Shown here: positions 28,944-41,396 of the stretch, piece after piece
Layout: every line of letters begins with the position of its first letter
Numbering within the stretch: the stretch's first letter is position 1
From: Candidatus Zixiibacteriota bacterium
Lineage (GTDB): Bacteria; Zixibacteria; MSB-5A5; JAABVY01; JAHJOQ01
Length of the DNA stretch: 48,331 nucleotides
Direction: 5' to 3'
Assembly: GCA_018820315.1 (NCBI GenBank)
Contig: JAHJOQ010000011.1
Coordinates: 1 to 48,331, forward strand
Program-made: the position numbers and the translations under genes
The notes under the pieces: generated by a model
The model's input: only the letters and a program-made list of their open reading frames with translations
What the model was told of the DNA's origin: nothing
The model's database searches: none

Positions 28944-30314
28944 CTATTCGATTGTTGCGGAATCGCTCGTGATGTCGTACTTCTTCATTCTATAGATGAG
29001 CACATGACGTGGCATCTTCAAGTATTTGGCTGCTTTGGTTCTATTCCAACCGCAGTTGTTGAGGGCATCGACTATGATCTTCCGGGTCGCTTCGTGATAA
29101 GTCAGTCTTTCCGGCTGGAGACTCGTACGCTCCGACGCACCGCCCGGTTTTGACATATCGAAATCATCAGGCAAGTCGCGGATTGTCAATGTATCCTCAC
29201 CGCGCAAAATCACCATCCGCCCGATCAGATTCTCTAGTTCTCTGATATTGCCGGGCCAACTGTAGTTCGAGAGCGCTTCAACGAGGTCATCTTCGATACC
29301 GACAGGTTTGTCAGGACTATGCTTCCTCAGGAACTCCCTGATCAAAAGCGGTATGTCTTCTCTTCTCTCGCGAAGACTCGGTACATGCAGCGGGATTACA
29401 TTCAGTCTGTAATACAAATCTTCTCTGAACCTTCCGTTGTCGATCGACTTCTTGAGATCGACATTTGTCGCAGCGATCACTCTGACATCGATATTGATCT
29501 TTCTCTCCGATCCAACCGGCTCGATGACTCGCTCCTGCAACACCCGGAGAAGTTTCACCTGCAATTCGGTTTCGAGTTCGCCGATCTCATCGAGCATGAT
29601 TGTGCCGCCATCTGCGAGTTCGAATTTCCCTCTCTTATCACGGATAGCGCCGGTGAAGGCGCCTTTGACATGGCCGAACAGCTCCGATTCGATCAGGTCT
29701 CGTGGAATCGCGGCACAGTTGACTGCAACGTATTTCTTCGTAAGTCTCGGACTGAGATGGTGAATCTGCCGTGCAATCACTTCCTTGCCGGTGCCGGACT
29801 CTCCGGTCAACAGCACTGTAGCGTCATACGGCGCGATCTTCTCAACAGTTCTCATCAGCTCCTTGTATGATCTGGATACACCAACGATGTGCTTGAATTC
29901 GTCGCGCCCGCGCAGTTCTTCTCTGAGCTGCTTGTTTTCATCTTCGAGATTCCGAAACTTAAGAGCCTTTTCAATCGCCACGAAGAGCTCATCGTCATCG
30001 AATGGTTTCGTGAGATAATCAAACGCACCGAGTTTGACCGCCTTAACCGCCTGTGAAACGTCAGCGAACGCAGTGATGAGGATTACTTCGAGCTCAGGCT
30101 GGACTTTCTTTGCCCTCTCCAGAAGCTCGATGCCGTTCAGCTTCGGCATTTTCATATCCGTGAGAAGCACATCATAGCGGCTTTTGCCCAGCTCATCGAG
30201 CGCAACCTGCCCATCGGCAACGGCGGTCACATCAAACCCCTTGCGACGGAGCTTGAATTGAATCACGCGCCTTAGGGCGTCGTCATCATCTGCAAGCAAC
30301 ACTCTGACAGCCAT
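28944..30314 (-). CDS. NtrC-family sigma-54 response regulator (ZraR-like)
   Basis: The 456-residue regulator has a receiver domain with phospho-acceptor Asp53 (LLTDMKMP) and acidic residues 9-12. The AAA+ domain carries Walker A GESGTGKE, the sigma-54 contact loop GAFTGA and LDEIGELE. The C-terminus is a Fis-type helix-turn-helix (NNCGWNRTKAAKYLKMPRHVL). It should activate sigma-54 promoters when phosphorylated by the adjacent kinase. Its start codon shares a base with the kinase stop, so the two are co-translated. The divergent metal-efflux operon, with its sigma-54-like promoter, is the obvious target. Confidence 0.92.
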   Translation of the reverse strand: MAVRVLLADDDDALRRVIQFKLRRKGFDVTAVADGQVALDELGKSRYDVLLTDMKMPKLNGIELLERAKKVQPELEVILITAFADVSQAVKAVKLGAFDYLTKPFDDDELFVAIEKALKFRNLEDENKQLREELRGRDEFKHIVGVSRSYKELMRTVEKIAPYDATVLLTGESGTGKEVIARQIHHLSPRLTKKYVAVNCAAIPRDLIESELFGHVKGAFTGAIRDKRGKFELADGGTIMLDEIGELETELQVKLLRVLQERVIEPVGSERKINIDVRVIAATNVDLKKSIDNGRFREDLYYRLNVIPLHVPSLRERREDIPLLIREFLRKHSPDKPVGIEDDLVEALSNYSWPGNIRELENLIGRMVILRGEDTLTIRDLPDDFDMSKPGGASERTSLQPERLTYHEATRKIIVDALNNCGWNRTKAAKYLKMPRHVLIYRMKKYDITSDSATIE

Positions 30315-31387
30315 TATGTCTCCTCGGATGGCGGAAACGAAATTCTAACCTCGGTACCCTTTCCCGATTTGCTCTCGATCCGTATCGCGCCGCCGTGGTC
30401 GTCAACAATGCTCCTTGCGATCGCAAGACCGAGACCGGTGCCTGCCGACTTGGTAGTATAGAACGGTTCGAACACTTTCTCCAGATCAAGCTGGTCAATC
30501 CCTTGTCCCGAGTCTTTGACGACCAGTTCAACGCGGTCTCCCGAACCGACTGCGAGCTTCACCTGAATCGTCGAACCCGAATTTGACGCCTCCAGAGCGT
30601 TGAGCATGAGATTCAGCATTAATTGGTGGATTTTTTCGGCATCGCCTTTGATGTGAATACTATCTGTAATCACGACATCTGTTGCCACGCCTGCTGACTC
30701 AATTTGCGCATCGATTTGACGCAGACTTGCCACGACTGTTTTGCTGAGATTGATGCTTGTGAGTTCGGTCTTCCTCGGTCGCGCGAATGTCAGAAAGTCT
30801 CTAACCGTGCCGTCCACCCTCCTGATTTCCTTGAATGCAATCTCTCTGAATTCGTCCCTATCATTAGAGGGTGTAGTCTCGTCGGACATTATTTCGAGAG
30901 CGCCCTTGATCGAGGCGAGCGGGTTCTTGATCTCATGAGCAACTCCGGCCGCCATCCGGCCGATTGTCGAGAGCCGCTGCGCGCGTTCGAGTTCTAATTT
31001 GGTCTCACCGTGGCGACGGCGGATGTGCAGTTCCCGTTCGGTCAACGCTCCGGTCAGCAGAGCGATAGCAAAGTAGAAAACGATTTCGACCAGTTCACCG
31101 GAAAGATCAGTAGGATGCTGTCTGGGCAGAAAGATAAATGGCATCACTGCAGCCGATATGATTGCTGCAGTCACGAGTCCCCCTCGCACGCCGAACCAGA
31201 CAGCGGCTATCGCGATCGGGATATAGCAGAATCTGCCATGGATAGCATGTATCCAGCCTGCGTGGCCAAAGATATTCTCAAGTACCAGGCCGTAGTGGAT
31301 CGCAAGAGTCAACGCGACCAGCAGGCCGAGGAAACCTATCTTGTAATACTTGACTTTCAATGCTACTTTGGTCAGATCATCTCCCAT
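30314..31387 (-). CDS. Membrane sensor histidine kinase, partner of the sigma-54 regulator
   Basis: The 357-residue kinase has four N-terminal membrane helices (about 15-115) with almost no periplasmic loop. A short coiled linker leads to the HisKA domain with His151 (GVAHEIKNPLASIKG) and the HATPase domain (LNLMLNALEASNSG, DSGQGIDQ, FYTTKSAGTGLGLAI). The sensor region resembles DUF4118/MASE-like membrane sensors and lacks an obvious metal-binding loop, so the signal may be sensed in the membrane. Overlap with the regulator gene is 1 base. Its promoter is at 31396-31425. Confidence 0.9.
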   Translation of the reverse strand: MGDDLTKVALKVKYYKIGFLGLLVALTLAIHYGLVLENIFGHAGWIHAIHGRFCYIPIAIAAVWFGVRGGLVTAAIISAAVMPFIFLPRQHPTDLSGELVEIVFYFAIALLTGALTERELHIRRRHGETKLELERAQRLSTIGRMAAGVAHEIKNPLASIKGALEIMSDETTPSNDRDEFREIAFKEIRRVDGTVRDFLTFARPRKTELTSINLSKTVVASLRQIDAQIESAGVATDVVITDSIHIKGDAEKIHQLMLNLMLNALEASNSGSTIQVKLAVGSGDRVELVVKDSGQGIDQLDLEKVFEPFYTTKSAGTGLGLAIARSIVDDHGGAIRIESKSGKGTEVRISFPPSEET

Positions 31388-31395
31388 GCATCACA

Positions 31396-31425
31396 GTGAT
31401 AGTAAATTCTGTGCCAGAAGATCAA
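31396..31425 (-). promoter_or_regulatory. Candidate promoter of the kinase-regulator operon
   Basis: On the minus strand TTGATC (31425-31420) is followed after 18 bases by TATCAC (31401-31396), which ends 8 bases before the ATG at 31387. No Shine-Dalgarno is seen, so the message may be leaderless. Confidence 0.4.
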
Positions 31426-31483
31426 TACACTCGCCAGGGTCTCTCTATGATCTTTCCTGCATGTGTGTTGAAGGGGCCCAGAC

Positions 31484-31581
31484 ATCGTCATCTCTGAGAG
31501 CGAAGCGTGGCAATCTCCACGTTCACTATAGCTTTGATCGACATTGAGATCGCCACGTCGCTCCACTCCTCGCGATGACGG
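31484..31581. repeat. Family B MITE-like copy
   Basis: This is an imperfect palindrome starting CGTCATCTCTGAGAGCG and ending CTCCTCGCGATGACGG, with the internal arms GTGGCAATCTCC and GAGATCGCCACGTC. It lies in the gap between the divergent two-component and efflux operons, outside the putative regulatory boxes. Confidence 0.65.
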
Positions 31582-31678
31582 ATTTTGCGATGCGCATGAC
31601 CGTTTCAACCAGCCCGCGCGCAAGCCTCCTGCAAGGGCAACCTCTCGGATCTGTATCTCAGCTGGCAACTCTATCCCT

Positions 31679-31728
31679 CAATATTGAAGAAAAATGAACA
31701 ATATTCTGTACTCAATCAACAATATTCT
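31679..31728 (+). promoter_or_regulatory. Three phased CAATATT boxes upstream of the metal-efflux operon
   Basis: CAATATT occurs at 31679, 31699 and 31720, the last two within AACAATATTCT. The spacing is 20 and 21 bases, two helical turns. They lie about 80-125 bases upstream of the sigma-54-like promoter, where enhancer sites for NtrC-type activators are expected. Binding by the adjacent regulator is inferred. Confidence 0.55.
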
Positions 31729-31805
31729 TCACTCTACAGTTCCTCGATAGAATAGTAAATTCGTAACCCATTGATATACAACGGATATTGCAGCGATTCT
31801 TGTAT

Positions 31806-31821
31806 TGGCACGCTTGTTGAT
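31806..31821 (+). promoter_or_regulatory. Sigma-54-like promoter of the metal-efflux operon
   Basis: TGGCACGCTTGTTGAT closely matches the -24/-12 consensus TGGCACN5TTGCW. The GG at 31807-31808 is in place, and the -12 GC is GA here, at the right distance. The predicted start is near 31831, about 10 bases before the ATG. Confidence 0.6.
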
Positions 31822-31840
31822 CTTATGTCTTGGCGTGATG

Positions 31841-33223
31841 AGATACGCAATATCAAGAAGACTGGCCTCTGCATTAGTTTTGGCTCTCGCAGTCATCAAC
31901 TTCGGCTTGGCCGATACGAGTGCCGCGTCGGAGAAAGATGATGCGATGGCACTCGCGAGAGAAACCGGTTCCGGCTACTCCGATTCGAAGGCAGCGATGC
32001 TTCGACCGGGTGTATCACTCAACGATTTTCTCATCTACGGTGCACTCAACAATCCCGGTCTGAAGGCAGCTTATTACAATTGGGTTTCGGAGTTGGAGAA
32101 GGTCGCTGTTGTTGGAGGATTGCCTGATCCGACCGTCTCATACGGTTACTTCATAAAGAATGTCGAGACGAGAGTCGGCCCGCAGAACCAGCGTTTCGGG
32201 ATTAAGCAATCAATACCATGGTTCGGAACACTCGGGAAGAGGGGAGATGCCGCATTCGAGTTGGCACAGGCAGCGTATCAGAATTATCAGTCCGAAAAGC
32301 TGCGGCTTTTCTATAGTATCACCCGTGCCTATAACGATTACTACTATCTTGGAAGAAATGTCGAGATTGCGTCAGACAATTTGGAGTTGCTCAAACTCTG
32401 GGAGTCTGTTGCGACGACCAAGTACAAGGCTGGGATCAGTCCGTACGCCGATCTCATCAAGATCCAGGTGGAGCTCGGAAAGCTCGACGATCAATTGACA
32501 AGCCTGGAGGAGATGAAGCGACCGCTGGAGTACAAGCTTCGCTCGGCGTTAGGGCTTCCTGACTCGTTGCCCCTGCCTGCTCCGACCTCAATTGCAAACA
32601 GCGAGTTTATTGCAGAGAGAGATTCTGTAACGATCTGGGCGCTCCGGCACAATCCGAACCTGAATGCCCTAAATCATCTGTTGAGCAAGGAGAAAATAGA
32701 GATCAGCCTTGCGAACATTGCACGTCTGCCCAATTTCACACTGGGAGCCGACTACATAGAGACGGGCGAGGCAGTGAATCCGGGGCTCGCTGAGAGTGGA
32801 AAAGATCCATGGATGGTCAGTGTTAGTCTCAATGTGCCCATCTGGTTCGGCAAGAACAATGCCCGCGTCAGGCAGGCTCAGGCGCGCAGAGATGCCGCCG
32901 AGAACCGGCTCGCAGACTCCAGGAATCAGATCGAAGCATATATCAGCCGGGTGTTGTTCGAATATGAAGATGCTGTCAGGAAGATCGGATTGTATGAGGA
33001 TGGTCTGATTCCGAAGGCGGAACAATCTCTTAACGCATCCTATACCGCTTACCAATCTGGTGAATCAGATTTCCTGAACCTCCTCGACGCACAGCGCGAG
33101 TTGCTTGAATTTCAACTGAATCTCGAAAAGGCGAGAACTGACGCATCCACAAAACTAGCAGAAATCGAAATGACAATCGGAAAAGACATAAGTAACCCAA
33201 TCAGTAAATCTCCAATCAAGTAG
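31841..33223 (+). CDS. TolC-family outer-membrane efflux channel (CusC-like)
   Basis: The 460-residue precursor has a signal peptide (RLASALVLALAVINFGLADTSAA). Two TolC-type repeats follow with conserved features: GALNNPGLKAAYYNW, LPDPTVSYGYFI, IKQSIPWFGTLGKRGDAA, and in the second repeat WMVSVSLNVPIWFGKNNARVRQA and the coiled YQSGESDFLNLLDAQRELLEFQL. It should form the outer-membrane duct for the pump encoded downstream. The ATG at 31841 is preferred over a TTG at 31805 inside the promoter. It has no clear Shine-Dalgarno. It is the first of four genes separated by 16, 27 and 3 bases. Confidence 0.88.
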   Translation, partial: RYAISRRLASALVLALAVINFGLADTSAASEKDDAMALARETGSGYSDSKAAMLRPGVSLNDFLIYGALNNPGLKAAYYNWVSELEKVAVVGGLPDPTVSYGYFIKNVETRVGPQNQRFGIKQSIPWFGTLGKRGDAAFELAQAAYQNYQSEKLRLFYSITRAYNDYYYLGRNVEIASDNLELLKLWESVATTKYKAGISPYADLIKIQVELGKLDDQLTSLEEMKRPLEYKLRSALGLPDSLPLPAPTSIANSEFIAERDSVTIWALRHNPNLNALNHLLSKEKIEISLANIARLPNFTLGADYIETGEAVNPGLAESGKDPWMVSVSLNVPIWFGKNNARVRQAQARRDAAENRLADSRNQIEAYISRVLFEYEDAVRKIGLYEDGLIPKAEQSLNASYTAYQSGESDFLNLLDAQRELLEFQLNLEKARTDASTKLAEIEMTIGKDISNPISKSPIK

Positions 33224-33239: not shown

Positions 33240-33740
33240 ATGAGAAAGTCCCAAATCATGATTCTGATGCTCTCTATGTTTGCTCTTCTTGCAGTATCTG
33301 CATTTGCAGGAGAGGTAAAGAAAGAGAGTGCGGAGAAGAAGCCGATCGAGCTGCATGCTCAGACTCTTTGTCCGGTGATGGGCGGCAAGGTTGATTCGAC
33401 GGCATATACAGATATTCAGGGACAGCGCGTGTACCACTGCTGCCCGGCATGCTCAAAGACTCTGAAGTCTGATCCTGACAAGTATTTCAAGAAGGCTGCC
33501 GCTGAAGGCGTGCTCTTTGAGAATGTTCAGGCGACCTGTCCGGTGTCGGGTAAGGAGCTCGGCGAAAAGAGCGTGTTCACAGATTACGAAGGCCGTCGCG
33601 TCTATTTCTGCTGTGAAAAATGCCCGGTGGAATTCGCCAAAGATCCGCAGAAATGTCTGGCCAAGCTCGATCAACCGGTAGAGACCGAAAAGGCGAGCAA
33701 AGCAGAGAAGACACAGAGTCACGAAGGACATGATCACTAA
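33240..33740 (+). CDS. Secreted double-YHS metal-binding protein
   Basis: The 166-residue precursor has a signal peptide (MILMLSMFALLAVSAFAG). Two YHS/TRASH-like repeats follow, each with CPVMGGK or CPVSGKE, a Y-x-GxRVY strand and a Cys-Cys pair (VYHCCPACSK; VYFCCEKCPV). The tail is acidic and His-rich (SHEGHDH). The paired cysteines suit Cu(I)/Ag(I) binding in the periplasm, so it may deliver metal to the adaptor or pump in the manner of CusF, to which it is unrelated. AAAGGAAG precedes the ATG. Confidence 0.8.
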   Translation: MRKSQIMILMLSMFALLAVSAFAGEVKKESAEKKPIELHAQTLCPVMGGKVDSTAYTDIQGQRVYHCCPACSKTLKSDPDKYFKKAAAEGVLFENVQATCPVSGKELGEKSVFTDYEGRRVYFCCEKCPVEFAKDPQKCLAKLDQPVETEKASKAEKTQSHEGHDH

Positions 33741-33767: not shown

Positions 33768-35675
33768 ATGACAGACTCAGATAAGAAGAGATTCTCAGAC
33801 TGGATATCACTCATACCACGTCGAGGTGCGGGCCTCGTCGTATTTATCCTGATAGTCGTCATTGCTTTCTCCCTTGGTCTTATGCTTTCCGGTGGCGACG
33901 ACGGACAGCTTGCGCAATCAGCAGTGCACGATCACGATGGCGAAGTCGCCAAGCAGCCCACCATCTGGACATGTTCGATGCACCCGCAGATCAAACTCCC
34001 GAAGCCGGGCAAGTGCCCGATTTGCTTCATGGATCTCATTCCGCTTGAATCTGGCTCCGGTGACGGTCTCGATCCGAATCAACTGAGAATGACAGAGGCT
34101 GCCAAGCAACTGGCGCGTATCGAGACAACACCCGTCGTGCGCGATTATGCGTCAGCCGAAATCAGGATGGTCGGCAGGATAGCGTATGACGAGACCAAAG
34201 TAGCCGTCATTTCCGCAAGAATTCCGGGGCGTATCGACCAGCTCTACGCCGACTACACCGGCCTCAGGGTTGCGAAGGGCGATCACTTGGTGAAGCTTTA
34301 CTCGCCGGAACTTCTCAGCGCGCAGGAGGAACTGATTCAGGCAAAGAGAAGCGTCGAGGGACTGCGCGTCAGAGGTGGAGTGCTCTTGTCGACGGCAATC
34401 ACTACTCTCGATGCAGCTCGCGAAAAGCTGAGCCTCTACGGCCTGCCCAAATATCAGATCGACGAAATCGAGGAGAGAGGAACAGCCGCTGAGAATTTGA
34501 CAATCTATGCCCCGATCGGTGGTACCGTTATTCACAAGAATGCAACCGAAGGAATGTATGTTCAGACAGGAACAGATATCTACACGATTGCCGATTTGAA
34601 GAAGCTCTGGGTTCTGTTCGATGCCTATGAATCCGACCTGCCATGGCTTCGTATTGGACAGACGGTCAAATTCGCGTCACCATCATTCCCCGGTGAACAA
34701 TTCGACGCAACGATTTCATTCATTGATCCAATCGTAGATCAGAAAACCCGTACGATCAGTGTGCGCGCGATAGCAGATAATACTGGTGATAGACTGAAGC
34801 CCGATATGTTCGTCAGCGGTGTTGTTAAGTCAAGTCTCGATGAGCATGGCAAGGTTGCCGACCAAAGCGATCGAGCACTTGTAATTCCGGCATCGGCACC
34901 GCTTCTCACCGGCAGCAGGGCAATTGTATATGTTCAAGTATCGGATGACGATGGTCCGGTGTTCGAAGGACGCGAGGTCGTACTCGGACCGAGAGCCGGT
35001 GAGCTCTACACCGTCAAATCGGGATTGGTCGAAGGAGAGCTTGTTGTCAGCAACGGCGCCTTCAAGATCGACAGCGAACTTCAGATACATGCAAAACCGA
35101 GCATGATGTCGCCTTCCGGAGGAGGTGCGCTGCCGCATGAGCATGATCAGTCAGCACCCATGGCTGCAGATATGATGGATCCCGAGGCTGTGTCGCACAT
35201 AATAGAATCTCCGGCATTGGAGACTCTAACTCCCGTCTTCGATGCTTACTTCGAAGTGCAAATGGCGCTGGCATCCGATGATCCAGTGGCTGCATCAGAA
35301 TCATACGCGAAACTCAGGGGAGAGGTTAGCTCGGTCGATATGTCGCTGTTTGATGGGGAAACACACATGCAGTGGATGTCACTCTCGGACAGCATCGTCA
35401 CCTACTCCAGGAAGGCCAGTGAGACTAAAGATATTGATCAATTGCGTGATGCGTTTTATCACGTCTCCAAAGCCATGATTGATTTGGAAGAGGGCTTCGG
35501 CCATTCTGACAATCGAGATTACTTCCTCACTTTCTGTCCGATGGCGCGTGACAACAGAGGTGCGTACTGGTTGCAGACAGTCGACACAGTCTACAATTCT
35601 TTCTATGGTGCAATGATGCTTCGCTGTGGTGAAATCAAGGGAGCGTTACCTTCCAATCCGGCGAGTGACAAGTAG
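33768..35675 (+). CDS. RND efflux periplasmic adaptor, CusB-like, with DUF3347
   Basis: The 635-residue adaptor has one N-terminal anchor helix (AGLVVFILIVVIAFSLGLML). A heavy-metal-binding domain follows, with WTCSMHPQIKL and GKCPICFMDLIPL. Next are the membrane-fusion core (RIDQLYADYTGLRVAKGDHLVKLYSPELLSAQEEL; IYAPIGGTVIHKNATEGMYVQTG) and a C-terminal DUF3347 domain (about 480-625) with FCPMARDNRGAYW. It should link the inner-membrane pump to the TolC-like channel and capture metal. It is longer than E. coli CusB (about 400 residues) because of the extra N- and C-terminal metal domains. Confidence 0.9.
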   Translation: MTDSDKKRFSDWISLIPRRGAGLVVFILIVVIAFSLGLMLSGGDDGQLAQSAVHDHDGEVAKQPTIWTCSMHPQIKLPKPGKCPICFMDLIPLESGSGDGLDPNQLRMTEAAKQLARIETTPVVRDYASAEIRMVGRIAYDETKVAVISARIPGRIDQLYADYTGLRVAKGDHLVKLYSPELLSAQEELIQAKRSVEGLRVRGGVLLSTAITTLDAAREKLSLYGLPKYQIDEIEERGTAAENLTIYAPIGGTVIHKNATEGMYVQTGTDIYTIADLKKLWVLFDAYESDLPWLRIGQTVKFASPSFPGEQFDATISFIDPIVDQKTRTISVRAIADNTGDRLKPDMFVSGVVKSSLDEHGKVADQSDRALVIPASAPLLTGSRAIVYVQVSDDDGPVFEGREVVLGPRAGELYTVKSGLVEGELVVSNGAFKIDSELQIHAKPSMMSPSGGGALPHEHDQSAPMAADMMDPEAVSHIIESPALETLTPVFDAYFEVQMALASDDPVAASESYAKLRGEVSSVDMSLFDGETHMQWMSLSDSIVTYSRKASETKDIDQLRDAFYHVSKAMIDLEEGFGHSDNRDYFLTFCPMARDNRGAYWLQTVDTVYNSFYGAMMLRCGEIKGALPSNPASDK

Positions 35676-35678
35676 ATC

Positions 35679-41396
<5,718 letters not shown>

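Follow-up and report, generated by a model that had tools for sequence, protein, structure and literature searches.

The window (the whole stretch of 48,331 nucleotides that was analysed) holds a Cus-type metal efflux operon that faces away from genes for a sensor kinase and an NtrC-type activator, and this raises the question of how the pump is switched on. An earlier note, made from the letters alone, had proposed a sigma-54 control region between the two gene sets. We believe that the locus is best read as an enhancer-driven sigma-54 two-component switch for a Cus-type pump, given the synteny, boxes, promoter and helical phase that more than 30 related loci share, and we put the probability that positions 31679-31837 are the enhancer and promoter of the operon at about 85%.

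Genes and predicted control elements of the locus

The genes of the locus are as follows.

28944..30314, minus strand: NtrC-type response regulator (Pfam Response_reg, Sigma54_activat, HTH_8; GAFTGA)
30314..31387, minus strand: membrane histidine kinase with a DUF4118-like sensor (Pfam HisKA, HATPase_c, DUF4118)
30968..31387, minus strand: sensor part of the kinase, with the motif HxxHxRxC
31838..33223, plus strand: TolC/CusC-like outer membrane efflux protein, first gene of the operon (Pfam OEP)
33240..33740, plus strand: YHS/TRASH metal-binding protein (Pfam YHS), present in nearly all loci
33768..35675, plus strand: CusB-like adaptor with an N-terminal HMBD heavy-metal binding domain (Pfam HlyD_D23, HMBD, DUF3347)
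35679..39509, plus strand: CusA/CzcA-family RND pump (TIGR00914, 785.5 over a cut-off of 701.45)

The kinase and the GAFTGA-bearing activator that had been named as divergent partners of the pump were both recovered, by Pfam domains and by alignment. The order of domains in the regulator (receiver, AAA+ with GAFTGA, Fis-type HTH) is that of group I, the NtrC type, and its recognition helix, PRHVLIYRMKKY, is conserved in the regulator alignment. The genome also has one copy of rpoN (E 2.5e-54), on which the earlier proposal depended. On the other side of the gap, the TolC/CusC-like protein begins MRYAISRRLASALVLALA, a signal-peptide-like N terminus. The adaptor scored 126.9 of 390 bits with the NCBIfam model PRK09783, below the cut-off, yet CusB was the best-scoring named adaptor. 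When the pump was aligned to E. coli CusA (3k07 chain A, with a numbering offset of 8), Met was found at all three positions of the Met triad, M573, M623 and M672, whose role in CusA is established.

Between the two gene sets we assigned the following elements.

31679..31685, plus strand: box 1, a CAATATT of the earlier note; weak, with the AATATT core only and inverted flanks
31685..31700, plus strand: possible left half-site TGAAGAAAAATGAACA, 11/16 to the family consensus, between boxes 1 and 2
31695..31710, plus strand: box 2, putative palindromic activator site TGAACAATATTCTGTA, 13/16 to consensus, about 104 bp to -24
31716..31731, plus strand: box 3, putative palindromic activator site TCAACAATATTCTTCA, 14/16 to consensus, about 83 bp to -24
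31806..31821, plus strand: predicted sigma-54 -24/-12 promoter TGGCACGCTTGTTGAT, with A at -12
31832, plus strand: predicted +1, placed by its geometry relative to the -12 element, with the ATG at 31838 following 6 nt later

The three CAATATT copies, at 31679, 31699 and 31720, lie exactly where they had been reported. The 7-mer itself is ordinary in the window (5 copies, 4.75 expected), and the spaced triplet occurs once there, whereas 100 shuffled versions of the window gave none. As activator sites the three copies fared differently: boxes 2 and 3 fit a 16-bp palindrome derived from the orthologous gaps, and box 1 retains only the core, lying about 125 bp from -24 in a phase that matches the other boxes. 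A search of the genome for the combined box-plus-promoter pattern returned only three matches, and the other two are inside open reading frames.

Conservation and helical phase in related genomes

Among 133 genomes from the same phylum, orthologs of the regulator (at a threshold of about 51% identity or more) turned up in 47. In 34 of the 46 ortholog loci that were mapped, the kinase gene is divergent from metal genes, facing the TolC-YHS-CusB-CusA operon in 26 cases and a YHS metal-protein gene in 8. The divergent arrangement is therefore conserved across many genera, which belong to several families of the class. In other groups, a scan of contigs gave only more distant regulators (best 47% identity), and only 1 of the 80 distant regulators listed had an RND match nearby, a weak one at 22% identity.

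A -24/-12 element was found in all 34 divergent gaps, as compared with 0.45 of 34 in shuffles, and palindromic boxes lie upstream of 36 of 37 candidate promoters. The boxes, for which the earlier note had advised a look at related genomes, total 65, where dinucleotide shuffles gave 1.15 on average; these counts are to be read with the knowledge that the box and promoter scores were drafted after about nine loci had been viewed, and that the orthologs are not fully independent. The consensus from the orthologous gaps is the 16-bp palindrome TGAAGAATATTCTTCA. The bases outside the scored 14, which took no part in scoring, are themselves symmetric, with T at 82% on the left and A at 78% on the right.

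The locus of genome G006 (L043/L238) offered a blind test, in that its cus operon is unlinked from the kinase start and is not divergent from it. The region upstream of its tolC gene, fetched afterwards, carries a box, TGTAGAATATTCCACA, about 73 bp before -24 and in the same phase as elsewhere, with a degenerate second box, TGGAGAATAGTCTGCA, about 20 bp further up. The promoter there is TGGCATGCAATTTGAC, again with A at -12, and in-frame ATGs follow the predicted +1 at 4 and 7 nt.

Across the loci, the distances from box centre to -24 fall at 71-75, 81-86, 91-95, 101-106, 116 and 126-127 bp, with a single box at 62, and thus cluster near 73, 83, 94, 104, 116 and 126 bp; neighbouring boxes are mostly 20 bp apart. 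At a period of 10.5 bp, the phase of the boxes relative to the promoter gave a Rayleigh R of 0.76 (p of about 3e-17, nominal and ignoring shared descent), and the nearest box taken by itself gave 0.80 (p of about 1e-10, nominal in the same sense). When the boxes were measured to the kinase start or to the next gene start as a control, R was 0.29 and 0.11, respectively. From locus to locus the distance between box and promoter shifts by whole turns and leaves the helical phase unchanged, and because the loci differ in this way, shared descent alone does not explain the phase. The boxes are therefore helically phased as had been proposed, and they are so relative to the promoter as well.

Several loci depart from this common plan or have further genes nearby. 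In order-level relatives and in L046 (L042, L043, L045 and L046), a box (GTAGAATATTCAAC or similar) is instead found close upstream of the kinase start, directly at that gene, hinting at autoregulation. The regulator orthologs of L034 and L036 have an adjacent sigma-54 promoter (TGGCACGCCATTTGTG and CGGCACGATATTTGTT, respectively) that faces other genes, which in L034 encode a lipoprotein-like protein, an HMBD-like protein and YHS proteins. Within about 1-5 kb downstream of their YHS genes, L106, L115, L117 and L105 carry cytochrome bd oxidase-like genes, which in two of these loci (L115 and L117) are preceded by genes for a second YHS-like protein and an Ig-like lipoprotein; these oxidase genes are possibly part of a copper-stress regulon with a copper-free oxidase.

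The predicted promoter, its -12 base and its start

The predicted promoter has the architecture TGGCAC-N5-TTGA. It carries GG at -25/-24 and the correct spacing to the -12 element, and of the GC at -13/-12 the G is kept and the C is replaced by A. The earlier description of a near-consensus sigma-54 promoter is thus right as to the site and needs amendment at the -12 element, which is TTGAT, not TTGCW. We considered whether A at -12 marks a broken promoter; this was ruled out, as 34 of 37 loci retain A or T there (the candidate promoters have A in 23 cases, T in 11 and C in 3). Elsewhere in the window's genome, the loci examined include 12 other intergenic TGGCAC-N5-TTG sites, and the base is C at 10 of them. 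Counts across the class, set against a reversed-pattern control that is crude, were 192/86 for C, 213/58 for A and 182/62 for T, so that the excess of TTGA and TTGT over this crude control is at least equal to that of TTGC. That A or T at -12 is unique to the Cus-operon promoter is not proven by these figures.

The predicted +1 leaves a 6-nt leader, and no Shine-Dalgarno-like sequence precedes the tolC ATG in the window; the YHS, CusB and regulator genes do have such a sequence. In 18 of 34 loci, the window among them, the predicted +1 is followed within 0-6 nt by an in-frame ATG, and the ATGs inside this interval number 20 in-frame versus 4 other. For several loci no alternative start is plausible (for example L033, L037, L041, with GTG, L044, L108, L109, L114 and L122), and in others a Shine-Dalgarno site accompanies a later start. 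The near-+1 ATGs suggest that transcripts are leaderless in a number of these loci, including the one studied here. A leader of 6 nt is too short to be of the conventional type and fits a leaderless message, a kind known in bacteria such as Sinorhizobium meliloti (PMC3616915). The window gave no Rfam match that would point to a structured RNA in the leader.

A proposed switch and its alternatives

We propose that excess periplasmic or membrane Cu(I)/Ag(I) would be sensed by the divergent kinase, probably via a cluster of invariant His, His and Cys residues at its first membrane turn. The kinase would phosphorylate the NtrC-type regulator, whose dimers, on palindromes of the consensus type about 20 bp apart, would assemble into an AAA+ ring. 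Bending of the DNA would carry this ring to a sigma-54 RNA polymerase presumed to be waiting at the -24/-12 element, and ATP hydrolysis would open the promoter. The transcript would begin only a few bases from the start codon of tolC, and the first gene would therefore probably be read from a nearly leaderless message.

The cluster in question is H47-x2-H50-x-R52-x-C54 at the kinase N terminus, invariant in 38 of 38 matched sequences and preceded by H31, which is also invariant, in order-level relatives as well. As a set, the motif is absent from the more distant paralogous sensors that we compared. We regard it as a candidate intramembrane Cu(I)/Ag(I) site. Because the pump keeps the CusA Met triad and the kinase has the His/His/Cys motif, copper or silver appears to be the likeliest substrate and signal, an assignment that the triad, the YHS and HMBD domains and the kinase motif support only indirectly.

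How far might other explanations account for the same sequence? A skeptic could point out that single copies of CAATATT are about as frequent in the window as chance predicts, and that the promoter motif alone is weak evidence, since 26 of 100 shuffled versions of the whole window also contain a match, so that both elements would be chance matches in AT-rich spacer DNA. For boxes and promoter taken together, chance is ruled out by their conservation in relatives, where the shuffle tests were made, and by the blind find at the unlinked operon of G006; we regard this explanation as refuted, with a negligible probability. A different objection accepts the boxes, as sites for the regulator or another protein, and supposes that transcription starts from a sigma-70-type promoter with an ordinary leader, the sigma-54-like element being no promoter at all. 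The off-consensus A or T at -12 would sit well with such an arrangement, as would a predicted start that leaves almost no leader. Against it, a search of 31380-31850 found no sigma-70-like site, the element is in every divergent gap at a fixed phase from the boxes, and the class of the regulator works through sigma-54. Moreover, the E. coli pspA sigma-54 promoter, TTGGCACGCAAATTGTA, has T at -12, so A or T there does not exclude sigma-54, and we judge the sigma-70 arrangement to be very improbable.

More serious is the proposal that the sigma-54 enhancer switch operates as described above and answers to zinc or general envelope stress, as has been argued for ZraSR in E. coli. ZraR, which offers the nearest studied logic, is now viewed as a zinc-activated regulator of envelope stress (PMC7657598). 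One family model covers both CusA and CzcA pumps, and in some loci the cytochrome bd-like genes stand slightly downstream of the YHS genes. The retained Met triad speaks against zinc or general stress, as does a kinase His/His/Cys motif suited to Cu(I)/Ag(I), and copper systems commonly contain HMBD and YHS domains. We consider a zinc or stress signal unlikely, though clearly a better contender than the two explanations above.

Returning to the copper- or silver-responsive sigma-54 switch, we tentatively extend it to a lineage-specific copper response with leaderless sigma-54 messages, a mostly non-C base at -12, a kinase that would sense Cu(I) intramembrane through the His/His/Cys cluster, and an enhancer distance that varies only by whole turns; for this combination as a whole we give rather less than even odds. 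A whole uncultured lineage appears to have placed its pump under an enhancer switch, and enhancer switches in general leak very little and are strongly inducible. The many species concerned amount to a natural experiment on enhancer geometry, with boxes 73 to 126 bp away and in phase, and the dependence on helical phase at close range becomes testable with natural promoters.

In the copper pumps of model bacteria, control is by OmpR-type or MerR-type regulators at sigma-70 promoters. We found no description of a sigma-54-controlled Cus system in open-access full texts, which is weak evidence of novelty. The CusRS-CusCFBA system of E. coli is alike in that an adjacent, divergent two-component pair controls a copper/silver RND pump with the Met triad. 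In E. coli, CusR belongs to the OmpR-type activators and acts at a sigma-70 promoter, whereas the locus described here has an NtrC-type enhancer protein and a predicted sigma-54 promoter, and its operon includes a YHS protein, with no CusF seen.

The earlier analogy to ZraSR is sound as a matter of logic: in the E. coli ZraSR/ZraP system, too, a metal-linked kinase and an NtrC-type, sigma-54-dependent regulator are divergent from a periplasmic target. Membership of that system fails, because the curated cut-offs for ZraR and ZraS are missed by far (NCBIfam equivalog models, 370.6 of 760 bits and 199.9 of 479 bits, respectively). The divergent target here is not the ZraP chaperone but a CusCBA-type pump of TolC, CusB and CusA with a YHS protein, and the sensor is a small membrane domain with the His/His/Cys motif. 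The PspF-pspA system of E. coli resembles the locus in its promoter, TGGCACGCAAATTGTA, which is also non-C at -12, and in placing a stress operon under an AAA+ activator; PspF has neither a receiver domain nor a kinase, and the pspA leader is longer and has a Shine-Dalgarno site. Finally, NtrC1 and NtrC (group I) share the receiver-AAA+-HTH plan, with 4l4u and 1ny5 as the best solved relatives of the regulator, and differ from it in their targets, kinase sensor and DNA box.
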